Shown in pieces: positions 13,893-59,826 of a stretch of DNA of 64,000 nt. Under the pieces are notes generated by a model. That model worked only from the letters and a program-made list of their open reading frames with translations. It had not been told where the DNA came from and searched no databases. The translations under genes and the position numbers were made by a program. Position 1 is the first letter of the stretch, and each line of letters starts with the position of its first letter. This DNA is from Sphingopyxis sp. H050 (GTDB lineage: Bacteria > Pseudomonadota > Alphaproteobacteria > Sphingomonadales > Sphingomonadaceae): assembly GCF_001468265.1 (NCBI RefSeq), contig NZ_LNRZ01000001.1:620001-684000 (forward strand), read 5' to 3'.

Positions 13893-13972
13893 CCGTCGCC
13901 CCCGCGAAGGCGGGGGCCGCTGGAGTCGTTGCGCAAGGCCGACTACGGCCCCCGCCTTCGCGGGGGCGACGG
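13893..13972. repeat. Palindromic element (family with CCGTCGCCCCCGCG arms)
   Basis: Perfect 26-nt inverted arms at 13893-13918 and 13947-13972 flank a 28-nt spacer. A close relative, differing at the central bases of the arm hairpin, occurs at 59733-59826. It lies between the serine hydrolase and the convergent PhzF gene. Confidence 0.85.
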
Positions 13973-14014
13973 ACTATTTAACGTCCCCTCCCCACCCCAA
14001 AGCAGTCCATCCCC

Positions 14015-27678: not shown

Positions 27679-27758
27679 CCGTTCGTGTCGAGCGAAGTCG
27701 AGACACCCCGAGGGCGCGTGCTGCCGATGGGCATCTCGACTTCGCTCGATGCGAACGG
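27679..27758. repeat. 80-bp palindromic element, copy 1 (sufT-sufA gap)
   Basis: Left arm 27679-27704 begins CCGTTCGTGTCGAGCGAAG; the right arm 27733-27758 is its reverse complement with two internal mismatches. About 28 nt separate the arms. It lies in the gap between sufT and sufA. Related copies are at 29390, 32812, 44748 and 59508. Confidence 0.9.
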
Positions 27759-27775: not shown

Positions 27776-28246
27776 TCACAGCATTCCCAGTTCGAGCCGC
27801 GCTTCGTCGCTCATATTCTGCGGCGACCACGGCGGATCCCAGACCAGATTAACCTCGGCATCGCCGACGCCCGGGACCGCGCCGACGCGGAGTTCGACCT
27901 CGGCAGGCATCGATTCCGCGACCGGGCAATGCGGGGTGGTCAGCGTCATTGTGACCATCACATGCCCCTCGTCGATCTCGACATTGTAGATGAGGCCAAG
28001 GTCGTAGATGTTCACCGGAATTTCGGGATCGTAGATGTCCTTCAGCGCGTTAACGACGGCTTCGTACAGATCACCACCGACCGCAGCGGGATCGACAGCG
28101 GCGGGCTTGGCCGCGAGGAACCCTTCCAGATAGTCGCGCTTGCGCTCCAGCTTCTCGGTCGCGGTTTCGACGTCCTCGACGCGCGCTTTCGGCGGCGCCT
28201 CGACGCTGGTGACTTCCTCAACCTTGATCATCCGGTCCTCGCTCAT
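27776..28246 (-). CDS. sufT: SufT / MIP18-type Fe-S assembly protein (DUF59)
   Basis: A 156-residue protein with a charged N-terminal extension (about residues 1-50) and a C-terminal DUF59/MIP18 domain. The domain shows 'LKDIYDPEIPVNIYDLGLIYNVEI', 'MTLTTPHCPVAESMPAEV' with the conserved Cys, and 'VWDPPWSPQNMSDEARLELGM'. Proteins of this type help mature Fe-S proteins. The ATG at 28246 overlaps the sufS stop (ATGA), so it belongs to the suf operon. The longer frame upstream reads antisense to no family and is discarded. Confidence 0.9.
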   Translation of the reverse strand: MSEDRMIKVEEVTSVEAPPKARVEDVETATEKLERKRDYLEGFLAAKPAAVDPAAVGGDLYEAVVNALKDIYDPEIPVNIYDLGLIYNVEIDEGHVMVTMTLTTPHCPVAESMPAEVELRVGAVPGVGDAEVNLVWDPPWSPQNMSDEARLELGML

Positions 28247-29487
28247 CCGAAAATCCTCTCGACGCGGGCGAGGCCGTCGATCAGCGCCGCCACATCGTCC
28301 TGATTGCTGTAAACGCCAAAACTCGCGCGGGCGGTCGCGGGCACACCCAGATGCTCCATCAGCGGCTGTGCGCAATGGTGCCCGGCGCGGATCGCGACCC
28401 CGCTTTCGTCCAAGATAGTGCCGATGTCGTGCGGATGAACCCCCGTCATCGAAAAGCTTACGATTCCGGCGCTGTTTTCAGGGCCGTAGAGCGTGATGCT
28501 GTTCTTGCGGGCGAGCTGCGCGCGCAGCGACGCGACCAGCGCGACTTCGTGTGCATGGATCGCCTCGACGCCGATGCCCTCGACGAAATCGATCGCCGCG
28601 GCGAGCCCCAGCGCTTCGACAATCGCGGGCGTTCCTGCCTCGAAGCGGGTGGGGGCGGGGGCGTAGGTCGTCCTGGCGAAGGTCACGCGGTCGATCATCG
28701 ACCCGCCGCCCTGCCAGGGCGGCAGCATGTCGAGCTTGTCGCTCCACAGCACACCGACGCCGGTGGGGCCGTAGAGCTTGTGGCCCGAGAAAGCGTAATA
28801 GTCGCAGCCGAGCGCCGCGACATCGACGGGCAGCCGCGGCACCGCCTGGCAGCCGTCGATCAGCAGCTCGGCGCCGACGCGGTGCGCGAGGTCGGCGGCA
28901 CGGGCGACATCGAGCGGGCTGCCGAGCACGTTCGAGACATGCGCGAAGGCGACCATCGTGTGTCCGGGGGTGAGCAGCTTTTCGGCGGCATCGAGGTCGA
29001 TACAACCATCGACGGTCAGCGGGCAGACATCAACCTGCCAGCCCGCAAGCTGCCAAGGCACGATATTGCTGTGATGCTCCAGCGTGGAGAGCAGCACGCG
29101 GCCTTTGCGCGGGTGTGAGTAGGCGACGAGATTGATCGCCTCGGTCGCGCCGCGCACGAAGGCGATCTGCTCTTCCTTCGCGCCGATAAATGCCGCGATC
29201 CGCCGCCGCGCCGCCTCATAGGCGAGCGTCATGTCGGCGGAGCGCGCATAGACGCCGCGATGCACCGTCGCATAGTCGCGGCCCATTGCGTTCACCGTCG
29301 CGTCGATCACCGCTTGCGGCTTCTGCGCGGTGGCGGCGGTGTCGAGGTAATGCCAGCCGGGCGTCAGGCCGGGAAACTGACCCCGAATTCCGTTCGTGTC
29401 GAGCGCAGTCGAGACACCGGGCGAGAATGTGCTGGCGTGGAGCATCTCGACTTCGCTCGATGCGAACGGGGAGGAGAGATCGCTCAC
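28243..29487 (-). CDS. sufS: Cysteine desulfurase SufS with an in-frame palindromic element near the N-terminus
   Basis: PLP-dependent group II cysteine desulfurase (414 aa) supplying sulfur to SufBCD. The PLP lysine is Lys237 in 'FSGHKLYGPTG' and the persulfide Cys is Cys372 in 'RAGHHCAQP'. It starts at GTG 29487, which overlaps the sufD stop (GTGA) with GGAGAG five bases upstream. Residues 7-33 are encoded entirely by an 80-bp palindromic element (29390-29469), and the normal SufS N-terminus ('IRGQFPGLTPGWHYLDTAATAQKP') follows directly. An internal ATG (residue 15, inside the element) is a weaker alternative start. No sufE gene is adjacent. Confidence 0.94.
   Translation of the reverse strand: MSDLSSPFASSEVEMLHASTFSPGVSTALDTNGIRGQFPGLTPGWHYLDTAATAQKPQAVIDATVNAMGRDYATVHRGVYARSADMTLAYEAARRRIAAFIGAKEEQIAFVRGATEAINLVAYSHPRKGRVLLSTLEHHSNIVPWQLAGWQVDVCPLTVDGCIDLDAAEKLLTPGHTMVAFAHVSNVLGSPLDVARAADLAHRVGAELLIDGCQAVPRLPVDVAALGCDYYAFSGHKLYGPTGVGVLWSDKLDMLPPWQGGGSMIDRVTFARTTYAPAPTRFEAGTPAIVEALGLAAAIDFVEGIGVEAIHAHEVALVASLRAQLARKNSITLYGPENSAGIVSFSMTGVHPHDIGTILDESGVAIRAGHHCAQPLMEHLGVPATARASFGVYSNQDDVAALIDGLARVERIFG
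29390..29469. repeat. 80-bp palindromic element, copy 2 (inside sufS)
   Basis: Left arm from 29390 (CCGTTCGTGTCGAGCGCAG) and right arm ending at 29469 (reads CCGTTCGCATCGAGCGAAG on the minus strand). The whole element lies in the sufS reading frame without a stop, encoding about 27 residues including 'PFASSEVE' and 'GVSTALDTNG'. The same two peptides, with small changes, are encoded by the copy in the Rrf2 gene. Confidence 0.92.
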
Positions 29488-30215
29488 ACCAGCTCTCCCA
29501 GCTTCGCGAGCGCGAGGGCCTGCAGCTGTTCCTCATCCTCGGCGCCGTCGAACACGCCCGCGACGAACGCCTGCAGCATCAGCTTCTTCGCCTCGCCGGG
29601 CGGCAGGCCGCGCGACTGGAGATAATAGAGCGCCGTGGCATCAAGTTCGCCGATCGCGCAGCCATGCGCGCATTTGACGTCGTCGGCGTAAATCTCCAGC
29701 TCTGGCTTTGCGTTGGCAGTCGCGCTGCGACCCAGCAACATCGCCTTCACATCCTGCTCGCTGTCGGTCTGCTGTGCATCGCGCGCGACGGCGACCTTGC
29801 CGAGATAGGTACCCGTCGCGGTTCCGCCGAGCACCGACCGCACCACCTGCCGCGACGTCGCGCCGGGCTCGGCGTGCGTGACCGTCGTGACGATCTCAAG
29901 GTTCTGCTCGCCGCCGCCGATCTGCGCGGCGCCGAGATGGAAGTCGGCGCCTTCGTGCAGCGTCACGGCGAGTTCGATGCGGCCATAGGCGCCGCCGATG
30001 TTCAACACATGCAGCGATGCCGTCGCGCCCTTGCCGAGCACCAGCTCGATCTGGCGGATATCACCCGCGTTCTGCACGATTGCGCGGCGGTAGTCGCCGC
30101 CAGCGGGCACGATGATGCTCTCGGGCGCCGGCAACGGCCAAAGGCGCGTTAGCGCCTGTATATCGCTGTACCGCCAAGCCTCATCGCGGCGCGTCGGAAT
30201 TGGCGCTGTCATCAT
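29484..30215 (-). CDS. sufD: SufD, Fe-S scaffold subunit (short form)
   Basis: A 243-residue SufD. The beta-helix core and the C-terminal cluster-assembly motif 'YADDVKCAHGCAIGELDATALYYLQSRGL' are present, including the conserved His after the Cys. The N-terminal helical domain of the ~420-residue enterobacterial SufD is largely missing, as is common in this order. It forms the SufB-SufC2-SufD scaffold. It starts 118 bp after sufC, with a long inverted repeat in that gap. Confidence 0.92.
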   Translation of the reverse strand: MMTAPIPTRRDEAWRYSDIQALTRLWPLPAPESIIVPAGGDYRRAIVQNAGDIRQIELVLGKGATASLHVLNIGGAYGRIELAVTLHEGADFHLGAAQIGGGEQNLEIVTTVTHAEPGATSRQVVRSVLGGTATGTYLGKVAVARDAQQTDSEQDVKAMLLGRSATANAKPELEIYADDVKCAHGCAIGELDATALYYLQSRGLPPGEAKKLMLQAFVAGVFDGAEDEEQLQALALAKLGELV

Positions 30216-30225
30216 AGCCTGCTCC

Positions 30226-30296
30226 TCTTCGCGTCTTCGCGTCTTCGCGTGAACAGAATCTTTTTTGGCTCACGCGAAGACGCGAAGACGCGAAGA
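30226..30296. repeat. Perfect 27-bp inverted repeat in the sufC-sufD gap
   Basis: Arms 30226-30252 and 30270-30296 are exact reverse complements around a 17-nt loop containing six T. Each arm is built from three 9-nt direct repeats of CTTCGCGT type. In the sufCD transcript this would form a very stable stem just upstream of sufD. It may be a dispersed repeat or an internal processing or attenuation site. It belongs to a different family from the other palindromes here. Confidence 0.9.
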
Positions 30297-30333
30297 CGAA
30301 AGGGAGGAAGGGCGCCTTCGGCGCGGAAATGGC

Positions 30334-32798: not shown

Positions 32799-32802
<4 letters not shown>

Positions 32803-33347
32803 AATGGAATTCCGTTCGCCTCGAGCCCTTCGACACGCTCAGGATTCGAGAGGCCCTTCGTCCGCGCGCTGTCGATGGGTGTCTCGACTTCGCTCGACAC
32901 GAACGGGTTTGATTTTGCCGGGGCGACGGTCAAACTCGCCAAACTGATCTCCGCCAATGCTCCCCGCACCGCGCCGTTCACCACGCCCCAATGCGGCTGC
33001 ACCTTGCAGCTGCCCTCGAGCGAGCAATCATGGCGGCCCTCGGAGACGCAGCTGGTCAGCGCGATCGGGCCTTCGACCGCCTCGATGATATCGGCGACGC
33101 TAATAGCCGCCGCCGGCCGCGCGAGCCGCACCCCGCCGCCGCTGCCGCGCGACGCGACGAGCAGGCCGGCACGCGCAAGTCCGCTCACCAGCTTCTGCGC
33201 GGTCGGCCCTGGGATGCCCGTCTGTTCGGCGAGCATGGCGGCGTGTATCGGCCCGGCACCATAATGCGATCCGCACTGGCGTGCGGCGGCGCTCATCAGC
33301 ACGACGGCATAATCGGCAAGGTTGGAAAGGCGCACTTCATTTCCCAC
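32799..33347 (-). CDS. Rrf2-family SUF regulator with a repeat-encoded C-terminal tail
   Basis: A 182-residue Rrf2/IscR-type transcription factor, first gene of the suf operon. The winged helix covers about residues 1-85 ('[31 protein letters not shown]'). Three Cys at 100, 108 and 114 match the Fe-S ligand pattern of IscR-like sensors. This fits the family of SUF-system regulators. Residues 148-179 are translated from a palindromic element (32812-32906), so the native protein probably ended near residue 147. The current stop still overlaps the sufB start. A palindrome upstream of the gene is the likely autoregulatory site. Confidence 0.9.
32812..32906. repeat. Palindromic element, copy 3 (composite, inside the Rrf2 gene)
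   Basis: The right arm 32881-32906 is the standard arm of the family. The left end begins CCGTTCG (32812) but continues into a different repeat-like sequence (TCGAGCCCTTCGACACGCTC), so this copy is a composite of about 95 bp. It is read in frame on the minus strand as residues 148-179 of the regulator ('[10 protein letters not shown]' to '[10 protein letters not shown]'). Confidence 0.88.
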
Positions 33348-43979: not shown

Positions 43980-44738
43980 TCAGGTCGCGAGCCGCGCGAC
44001 GGTATCGATCAGGAGCGCGATGTCGGTGTCGCGCGAAAGGCGGTGATCGCCGCCCTTGACCAGCGTCACCTGCACATCCTCGCTCGCCAGCGCAGCCGAC
44101 AGGCGCAGGCTGATCTCGGGCGGCACGTCGCCGTCCTCTTGTCCGTGGAGCAGCCGCACCGGGCAGGCGAGGGGGATTTCCGAATCTAGCAGCCGGTTTG
44201 CCTCGCCCGACTGCCAGAAACGGCGCGTCGTCATATAGGGCTGGTCGCTGTACGGCGTCTCTTCGAGCAATGCCCCTTCGGCGAGGATGATCGCTTTCTC
44301 GGCATCGCTGAAGCCCCACTCGGTAAAATCCGGCGCGGCCGCGATCCCGACGAGCCCGGCAACCCGCGCCGGCCCGTCGCGCTGAACCAGCGCGAGCGCG
44401 GTCAGCAGCATCAGCCAGCCGCCCATCGACGACCCGACGATGATCACCGGCCCCTCGGTCTTCGCATCGACCAGGTCGAGCACATCGCCCCGCCAGTCGA
44501 GCAGCGTCTGCTCGGCAAACAAACCGTCCGAAAGCCCGCATCCGGCATAGTCGAGGAGCAGGCACGCATGGCCCTCGGCCGCCGCCCAATCGAACAGCGC
44601 GGTCGCCTTGCCGCCCGCCATGTCGGACATATAGCCCGGCAGGAAGACGATCGTCGGCCCGGCGCCGGGCGTGTGACGATAGGCGAGCCGCGGGCGGCCC
44701 GGCCGGTCGAGATAGCTGGGCGCGGTAGCGTCGCTCAC
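43980..44738 (-). CDS. Alpha/beta hydrolase
   Basis: A 252-residue serine hydrolase. The oxyanion region is 'TIVFLPGYMSDMAGGKA', the nucleophile elbow VGSSMGGWL, the acid probably in 'LLHGQEDGDVP', and the His in 'KGGDHRLSRDTDI'. It resembles the palmitoyl-protein-thioesterase ABHD10-like group of small cytosolic hydrolases. It starts at GTG 44738, only nine bases from a palindromic element upstream, and no strong ribosome site is visible. It is the first gene of the glyoxalase/thioesterase run. Confidence 0.87.
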   Translation of the reverse strand: MSDATAPSYLDRPGRPRLAYRHTPGAGPTIVFLPGYMSDMAGGKATALFDWAAAEGHACLLLDYAGCGLSDGLFAEQTLLDWRGDVLDLVDAKTEGPVIIVGSSMGGWLMLLTALALVQRDGPARVAGLVGIAAAPDFTEWGFSDAEKAIILAEGALLEETPYSDQPYMTTRRFWQSGEANRLLDSEIPLACPVRLLHGQEDGDVPPEISLRLSAALASEDVQVTLVKGGDHRLSRDTDIALLIDTVARLAT

Positions 44739-44747
44739 TCTCTAATT

Positions 44748-44828
44748 CCGTTCGTGTCGAGCGACGTCGAGACACCCATGGGGACAATATAAGATCGAGA
44801 GGCCTCTCGACGTCGGCGGATGCGAACG
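44748..44828. repeat. 80-bp palindromic element, copy 4
   Basis: Left arm from 44748 (CCGTTCGTGTCGAGCGACG) and a more diverged right arm ending at 44828. Positions changed in the left arm stem (GACGTC instead of GAAGTC) are matched in the right arm (GACGTC), so the stem is preserved. It sits in the leader of the hydrolase/glyoxalase run. Confidence 0.85.
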
Positions 44829-59589: not shown

Positions 59590-59635
59590 AAAAGAGAGGT
59601 GACCGGTTTCGACCGGTTGCCGCCGTCTCTTTTAT

Positions 59636-59708
59636 CGTCATCCCGGACTTGATCCGGGATCCATAGCCGCGCCGTCGTAATGGATCCCGGATCAAGTCCG
59701 GGATGACG
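59636..59708. repeat. Palindromic element with CGTCATCCCGGACTTGATCC arms
   Basis: Perfect 28-nt arms 59636-59663 and 59681-59708 around a 17-nt loop. Each arm contains its own inner palindrome TCCCGGACTTGATCCGGGA. It is a different family from its two neighbours, and no other copy occurs in the window. Confidence 0.88.
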
Positions 59709-59732
59709 ACGGTAGGAAGCGATCGAAATAAG

Positions 59733-59826
59733 CCGTCGCCCCCGCGCAGGCGGGGGCCGCAGTCGGTCTAACTCTGGCGGCCCAGGAACAGGCCGCCAGC
59801 GGCCCCCGCCTGCGCGGGGGCGACGG
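59733..59826. repeat. Palindromic element with CCGTCGCCCCCGCGCAGG arms
   Basis: Perfect 28-nt arms 59733-59760 and 59799-59826, with a nested CTGGCGGCC/GGCCGCCAG stem (59774-59782 and 59791-59799) inside. It is the same family as 13893-13972, where the arm core is CGAAG instead of CGCAG. Confidence 0.88.

Follow-up and report, generated by a model that had tools for sequence, protein, structure and literature searches.

In-frame palindromic repeats of several families at the N-terminus of SufS in Sphingopyxis, with sequence evidence that family A is translated

The DNA analyzed here is a stretch of 64,000 nucleotides from Sphingopyxis sp. H050 (contig NZ_LNRZ01000001.1, positions 620,001 to 684,000), referred to as the window. 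It contains suf genes in or between which palindromic repeats are located, as listed below.

27679 to 27758, no strand assigned: copy of the family-A repeat in the gap between genes that we take to be sufT-like and sufA-like
28243 to 29487, minus strand: sufS, a cysteine desulfurase open reading frame of 414 amino acids
29390 to 29469, minus strand: family-A palindromic element of 80 bp, encoding SufS residues 7-33 in frame
29484 to 30215, minus strand: sufD (TIGR01981, 169.5 bits, under its cut-off of 222)
29485 to 29487, minus strand: GTG start codon of sufS, which overlaps the stop of sufD
30223 to 30299, no strand assigned: another palindrome, with arms of 30 nt that are 97% complementary, in what is presumably the sufC/sufD gap
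32799 to 33347, minus strand: SUF regulator of the Rrf2 family (TIGR02944, 111.6 bits over residues 5-138, above the cut-off of 110.65)
32827 to 32906, minus strand: diverged family-A copy, in frame and encoding the C-terminal tail of the SUF regulator, with one clear arm by pattern

The element in sufS consists of two inverted arms of ~27 nt with a spacer of ~24 nt between them. The TGA stop codon of sufD (29484-29486) shares bases with the GTG of sufS, and SufS matches its family profile, TIGR01979, from residue 34 onward (460.9 bits, slightly short of the curated cut-off of 475.1). When folded, the copy in the window forms one long hairpin (−43.1 kcal/mol, z = −5.9), and none of 200 shuffled sequences folded as well. 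An earlier note on this DNA had described an 80-bp repeat at these coordinates, read in frame as residues 7-33, together with the GTG/TGA overlap and an ATG at codon 15, and each of these points was confirmed.

The note had also recognized the element as a repeat present elsewhere, which is borne out by the genome of strain H050. The element yielded 70 strand-hits in this genome, of which about 40 are full-length copies, each counted on its best strand. Allowing up to two mismatches, the arm pattern matched 51 times in the forward and 50 times in the reverse orientation, compared with 0 and 1 matches for a reversed control pattern. We located 55 elements in the window and the stretches fetched from this genome. 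There were 36 complete arm pairs, and 29 of these combine one T-type and one C-type arm in inverted order, spanning 70-81 bp with a variable spacer. All six reading frames were open in 10 of 19 copies outside sufS, compared with 93 of 5,000 random 80-mers of equal base composition. Because the repeat is so unusually free of stop codons, its capture as coding sequence should be easy.

Two approaches to these copies were abandoned. Classification of the 55 elements by codon bias was too crude: sufS itself was not flagged, because the sequences to its left and right are coding in other frames, and the candidates that were flagged proved on inspection to be intergenic copies, lying before genes that we take to be ruvC-like, fadB-like, and others. 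A RAYT source for the element was likewise rejected, as a profile search of the H050 genome for Y1_Tnp (PF01797) returned 0 matches while the control was positive in 5 of 14 genomes. Two further repeats in the window are recorded here. A solitary family-A arm (44744-44776) lies directly upstream of an open reading frame on the minus strand (43980-44738), presumably encoding an alpha/beta-hydrolase-like protein, and positions 59635-59709 hold a perfect 30-nt inverted repeat whose end reads TCGTCATCCCGGA and which resembles a CGTC-type REP.

Whether the repeat is part of the protein depends on where translation of sufS begins. If the annotated start were an artefact, sufS would begin after the element and the repeat would merely be intergenic. 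The profile match that opens at residue 34 and the ATG at codon 15 would fit such an arrangement, as would the caution in PMC3733652 that many REPs at the 5′ ends of genes may be non-coding. The distribution of start codons and the pattern of substitutions, however, make this highly improbable. None of the 24 Sphingopyxis loci with a family-A repeat has an in-frame ATG, GTG, or TTG between codon 15 and the SufS core; translation must therefore enter the element. Of the 24, 13 have no possible start other than the codon that overlaps the stop of sufD. Relatives with the A2 form of the repeat have no downstream start. In the A1 form, translation could begin at an ATG within the first arm, codon 15 in the window, but even then ribosomes would read through the element's second half.

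We then compared codons that differ at one base between pairs of copies; these counts come from pairs that are not independent. The A2 copies in sufS showed 157 synonymous and 143 nonsynonymous differences (52% synonymous; expected 26%), and the A1 copies showed 168 and 241 (41%; expected 26%). In contrast, 19 other copies from the H050 genome, read in the same frame as in sufS, showed 221 and 627 (26%; expected 26%), and shifted frames of the sufS copies had no comparable synonymous excess. When distinct changes in each column were counted once, the excess was weaker, with 16 synonymous to 28 nonsynonymous for A1 and 10 to 12 for A2, above the expected 26% although the numbers are small. The lack of downstream starts in the A2 form and a synonymous excess confined to the sufS frame support the view, also taken in the earlier note, that the repeat is in frame and translated. 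The disorder that the note proposed for the SufS N-terminus is likewise supported: in an AlphaFold model built with 58 sequences, pLDDT was <50 over residues 1-26, and a helix was predicted from residue 31. Translation is less certain for repeats other than family A, since at 8 of 18 such loci an ATG or TTG in frame lies no more than 60 nt from the core.

To see what occupies this site elsewhere in the genus, we turned to 80 Sphingopyxis genomes. The sufS gene was found in 75, and 73 N-termini were readable (L162 and L163 were unread). An in-frame repeat of one of four sequence families was present in 42 of the 73. Family A accounted for 24 (12 A1 and 12 A2), B or its short form for 10, C for 6, and D for 1; one more, initially set apart as family E, was merged with B after 5 of 6 comparisons matched. 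The remaining 31 have no repeat. Once the shared ends had been trimmed, comparison of the A, B, C, and D inserts gave no matches between families apart from 2 of 24 A2-C2 pairs. The B, C, and D inserts are themselves dispersed repeats in their host genomes, with 77, 53, and 30 strand-hits in G070, G063, and G067, respectively, and they gave 46, 54, and 71 strand-hits in the genome of strain H050.

SufS proteins with the element read VSxLSSPF...TNGIRDQFPGL, whereas relatives without it mostly read VSTTTALRTFPDVRADFPGL. The earlier note had expected the residues to be missing from related proteins with the flanks continuous. The first expectation holds for the 31 repeat-free genomes; the flanks, however, are imperfectly continuous, so about 11 native residues were replaced and not merely split. 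Its broader interpretation fared in the same way: the in-frame, translated insertion stands, but the event was not a single one, as several families occupy the site across the genus and native residues have been exchanged for them.

Outside Sphingopyxis, we compared 18 SufS N-termini of at least 90 nt, each starting at the sufD stop, with all other DNA in the study, and read them by eye in addition. Twelve match sequence elsewhere at E ≤1e-3, with L049 and L095 doing so weakly. Among the 12, Sphingobium L061 and Sphingomonas L108 have A-like peptides as judged by eye and by comparison. In the reading of N-termini that included these two loci, L055, which was empty, and L104, L106, and L114 yielded none. 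Separately, another family of GC-rich palindromes, present in the window at 13893-13979 and 59726-59826, matches the SufS N-terminal inserts of the non-Sphingopyxis loci L049, L065, and L099.

The type of insert is unrelated to the operon tree. On an operon tree built from eight alignments of suf-region genes, covering 61 of the 75 Sphingopyxis genomes with sufS, insert type required 33 changes compared with 34.6 for shuffled types; on a tree of the sufS core, it required 39 compared with 40.8. Type and sequence were strongly associated only in the ~20 nt adjoining the segment (z = −12.7). The association was gone in sufD and in most of sufS, with one stretch near +48 to +68 at z = −2.8. A single ancient insertion, passed on vertically with losses and with the other families as later replacements, would agree with the stereotyped boundaries of the A-type inserts (TNGIRxQFPGL) and with the finding that the nearest neighbor of a sufS element is the sufS copy of another species in 14 of 15 cases. 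The scatter of types over both trees, and an association that vanishes within tens of bases on either side of the segment, speak against this history, which we consider improbable; vertical inheritance was rejected on these grounds.

The same stereotyped ends, and the closeness of sufS copies to one another, favor the exchange of a short segment over a fresh insertion each time. This reading is tempered by weak background linkage, as ordinary stretches of sequence also correlate weakly (r mostly 0.1-0.4). Native N-termini correlate more closely with their flanks than do inserts of family A or B. Spacer diversity among the sufS copies (0.27) is lower than in the genome pool (0.42), though not tightly so.

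Family-A repeats are also in frame in at least two other genes. The stop of the SUF regulator overlaps the start of sufB by 4 nt, and the C-terminal tails of the regulator, read by eye at 60 loci, fall into A (10), B-like (12), PAFAGA-type (23), D-like (3), and short DEIRL/DEIRI/DEIRV forms (12). The second gene, from the H050 genome, encodes what we take to be an acyl-CoA carboxylase carboxyltransferase subunit (best NCBIfam TIGR01117, far below its cut-off), in which the element lies mid-protein in an interdomain linker (L005:1502-1579, equivalent to G000:C2:481611-481690; comparison loci L264-L293). This insert is unambiguously coding because conserved sequence flanks it on both sides. We fetched the best 30 loci of 74 genomes and read 24 of them. 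Eight linkers are A-derived (3 full, 4 shorter, and 1 degenerate) and 16 are native, a share of inserts that is biased upward because the 30 loci were the best-scoring with an element-bearing query. The same peptide frame, PF(A/V)SSEVE...(L)(D/E)xNG, is used in SufS, the carboxylase, and the regulator.

The explanation that we favor, with a probability of about 0.75, is that repeats build up where a protein is permissive, in its tails and linkers, and that Sphingopyxis genes repeatedly take up repeat DNA at such tolerant ends. The SufS tail between the sufD stop and the conserved core would be dispensable and is probably unstructured, and dispersed palindromic repeats of several families would land in it or be exchanged into it. 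Since sufS is a needed gene that starts upstream of the repeat, only in-frame, stop-free versions would survive, with the frame enforced by the overlapping sufD-sufS start. A surviving repeat would then become translated tail sequence, as the start-codon, frame, and substitution evidence shows. Comparison across loci shows that the C-terminus of the SUF regulator and the carboxylase linker have captured repeats in the same way. Rapid turnover of the short segment, probably through homologous exchange between species together with new insertions, would explain why the repeats differ from one species to the next.

Against the favored explanation, the SufS site is not just any tail, since family-A elements cluster in the suf operon. 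Over 60 suf loci, the operon (374 kb in all) contains 35 elements and the flanking DNA (804 kb) contains 5, a roughly 15-fold higher density in the operon (naive P = 4e-13, a value that ignores shared ancestry). All 35 are at three junctions: sufD/sufS (20), regulator/sufB (10), and sufT/sufA (5). In strain H050, three copies lie within the 6-kb operon (naive P = 7e-5, post hoc). The clustering is post hoc in general, because the operon was examined on account of the sufS finding. We scored as strong hairpins those folding windows below −55 kcal/mol per 100 nt, leaving out L238. They were found at sufC/sufD in 34 of 58 loci, at regulator/sufB in 26 of 60, and at sufD/sufS in 16 of 60, compared with 1.1% of 15,506 windows within gene bodies. 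Few were found at sufB/sufC (3 of 60), at the end of sufA (2 of 60), or at sufS/sufT (0 of 12).

These data bear on the main rival to the favored explanation, a putative role of the hairpins in suf mRNA at gene junctions, where they would be kept for stability, processing, or the ratio of SufS to SufBCD. On this view, the in-frame position of the repeats would follow solely from the 4-nt overlap of the junction genes and the need to preserve translational coupling. Such a role is possible, if doubtful. It draws on the density of elements in the operon and their confinement to three junctions, on the three copies in the operon of strain H050, and on the enrichment of strong hairpins at sufC/sufD, regulator/sufB, and sufD/sufS. 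It also draws on the slow silent sites of the arms: divergence at fourfold sites is 0.03-0.15 in the arms of the sufS copies, compared with 0.30 in the sufS core and 0.32-0.36 in sufD. Plain permissiveness does not predict this slowness, which counts against the favored explanation; recent insertion would predict it. However, the arms of non-coding copies are equally conserved, so the slow silent sites may reflect the biology of the family and not selection in sufS. Nor would the role readily accommodate the 31 of 73 genomes without a repeat at the sufS site, the junctions at which strong hairpins are few, or the carboxylase copy, which is in no junction. The sufS copies also fold more weakly on average than other copies in the H050 genome (mean MFE −46.3 compared with −50.4, with the copy in the window at −39.8 in this comparison), and the A2 copies are shorter as well. 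We regard as rather unlikely a more elaborate form, in which the Sphingopyxis suf operon is a hotspot for interchangeable palindrome cassettes that are kept at gene junctions for an RNA role and, owing to translational coupling, have to be translated as protein tails. Hairpin and coding constraints would then act together on one short segment, which species would exchange as a cassette.

Whichever role applies, the site offers a natural series within one enzyme. In free-living species that are close relatives, named strains among them, it is found either vacant or occupied by an A, B, C, or D repeat. Such a series would make it possible to test whether coding palindromes are neutral passengers, a source of protein innovation, or elements acting as RNA, a question outstanding since the work on Rickettsia. 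The finding also serves as a warning that the tails of SufS and the SUF regulator in databases of Sphingomonadales proteins are repeat-derived.

The nearest parallel in mode of working, already drawn in the earlier note, is with the Rickettsia palindromic elements (RPEs), which Ogata in 2000 and 2002 reportedly described as in-frame palindromic repeats in unrelated housekeeping genes. RPEs encode a related peptide in a fixed frame (PMC10969869, PMC3733652). The family-A repeat is similarly inserted in frame in several unrelated genes (sufS, the carboxylase subunit, and the tail of the SUF regulator) and keeps the same peptide frame across them, which makes the parallel apt. The element works like an RPE, the likeness being one of behavior. 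Unlike RPEs, it is found in free-living Sphingomonadales as an 80-bp element with two arms, four families recur at one site, and both tails and a linker are affected.

In structure, the repeat is like REPINs and BIMEs. These are dispersed, mostly outside genes, have a pair of palindromic arms in inverted order around a spacer of variable length, and are associated with RAYT transposases (PMC3116915, PMC2817692). Family A also consists of two inverted arms with a short spacer and is dispersed. It differs from RAYT-associated REPINs in that its own genome has no match to Y1_Tnp. It may also differ from the GTAG and CGTC REP super-families, as its arms, which start with CGTTCG in most copies, show no evident GTAG or CGTC end.

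Our literature search returned no paper describing repeats like these in sufS or the suf operon. In-frame repeats within the order are nevertheless on record, and the statement in the earlier note that none had been described in Sphingomonadales does not stand. Di Nocera et al. 2013 reported REP dimers that lie inside open reading frames and code for 20-30 residues, including cases in S. alaskensis and E. lithoralis, where tRNA synthetases and TruB carry them (PMC3733652). In the same report, the recB genes of two Xanthomonas species have different REPs at about the same site. The passages of PMC3733652 that we consulted do not name sufS, which its Additional file 3 may list, and describe neither turnover across a genus nor clustering at junctions such as we found in Sphingopyxis. 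In-frame REPs are thus already known, both as RPEs and as the intragenic REPs of PMC3733652, and the Sphingopyxis sufS case is a variant of them.
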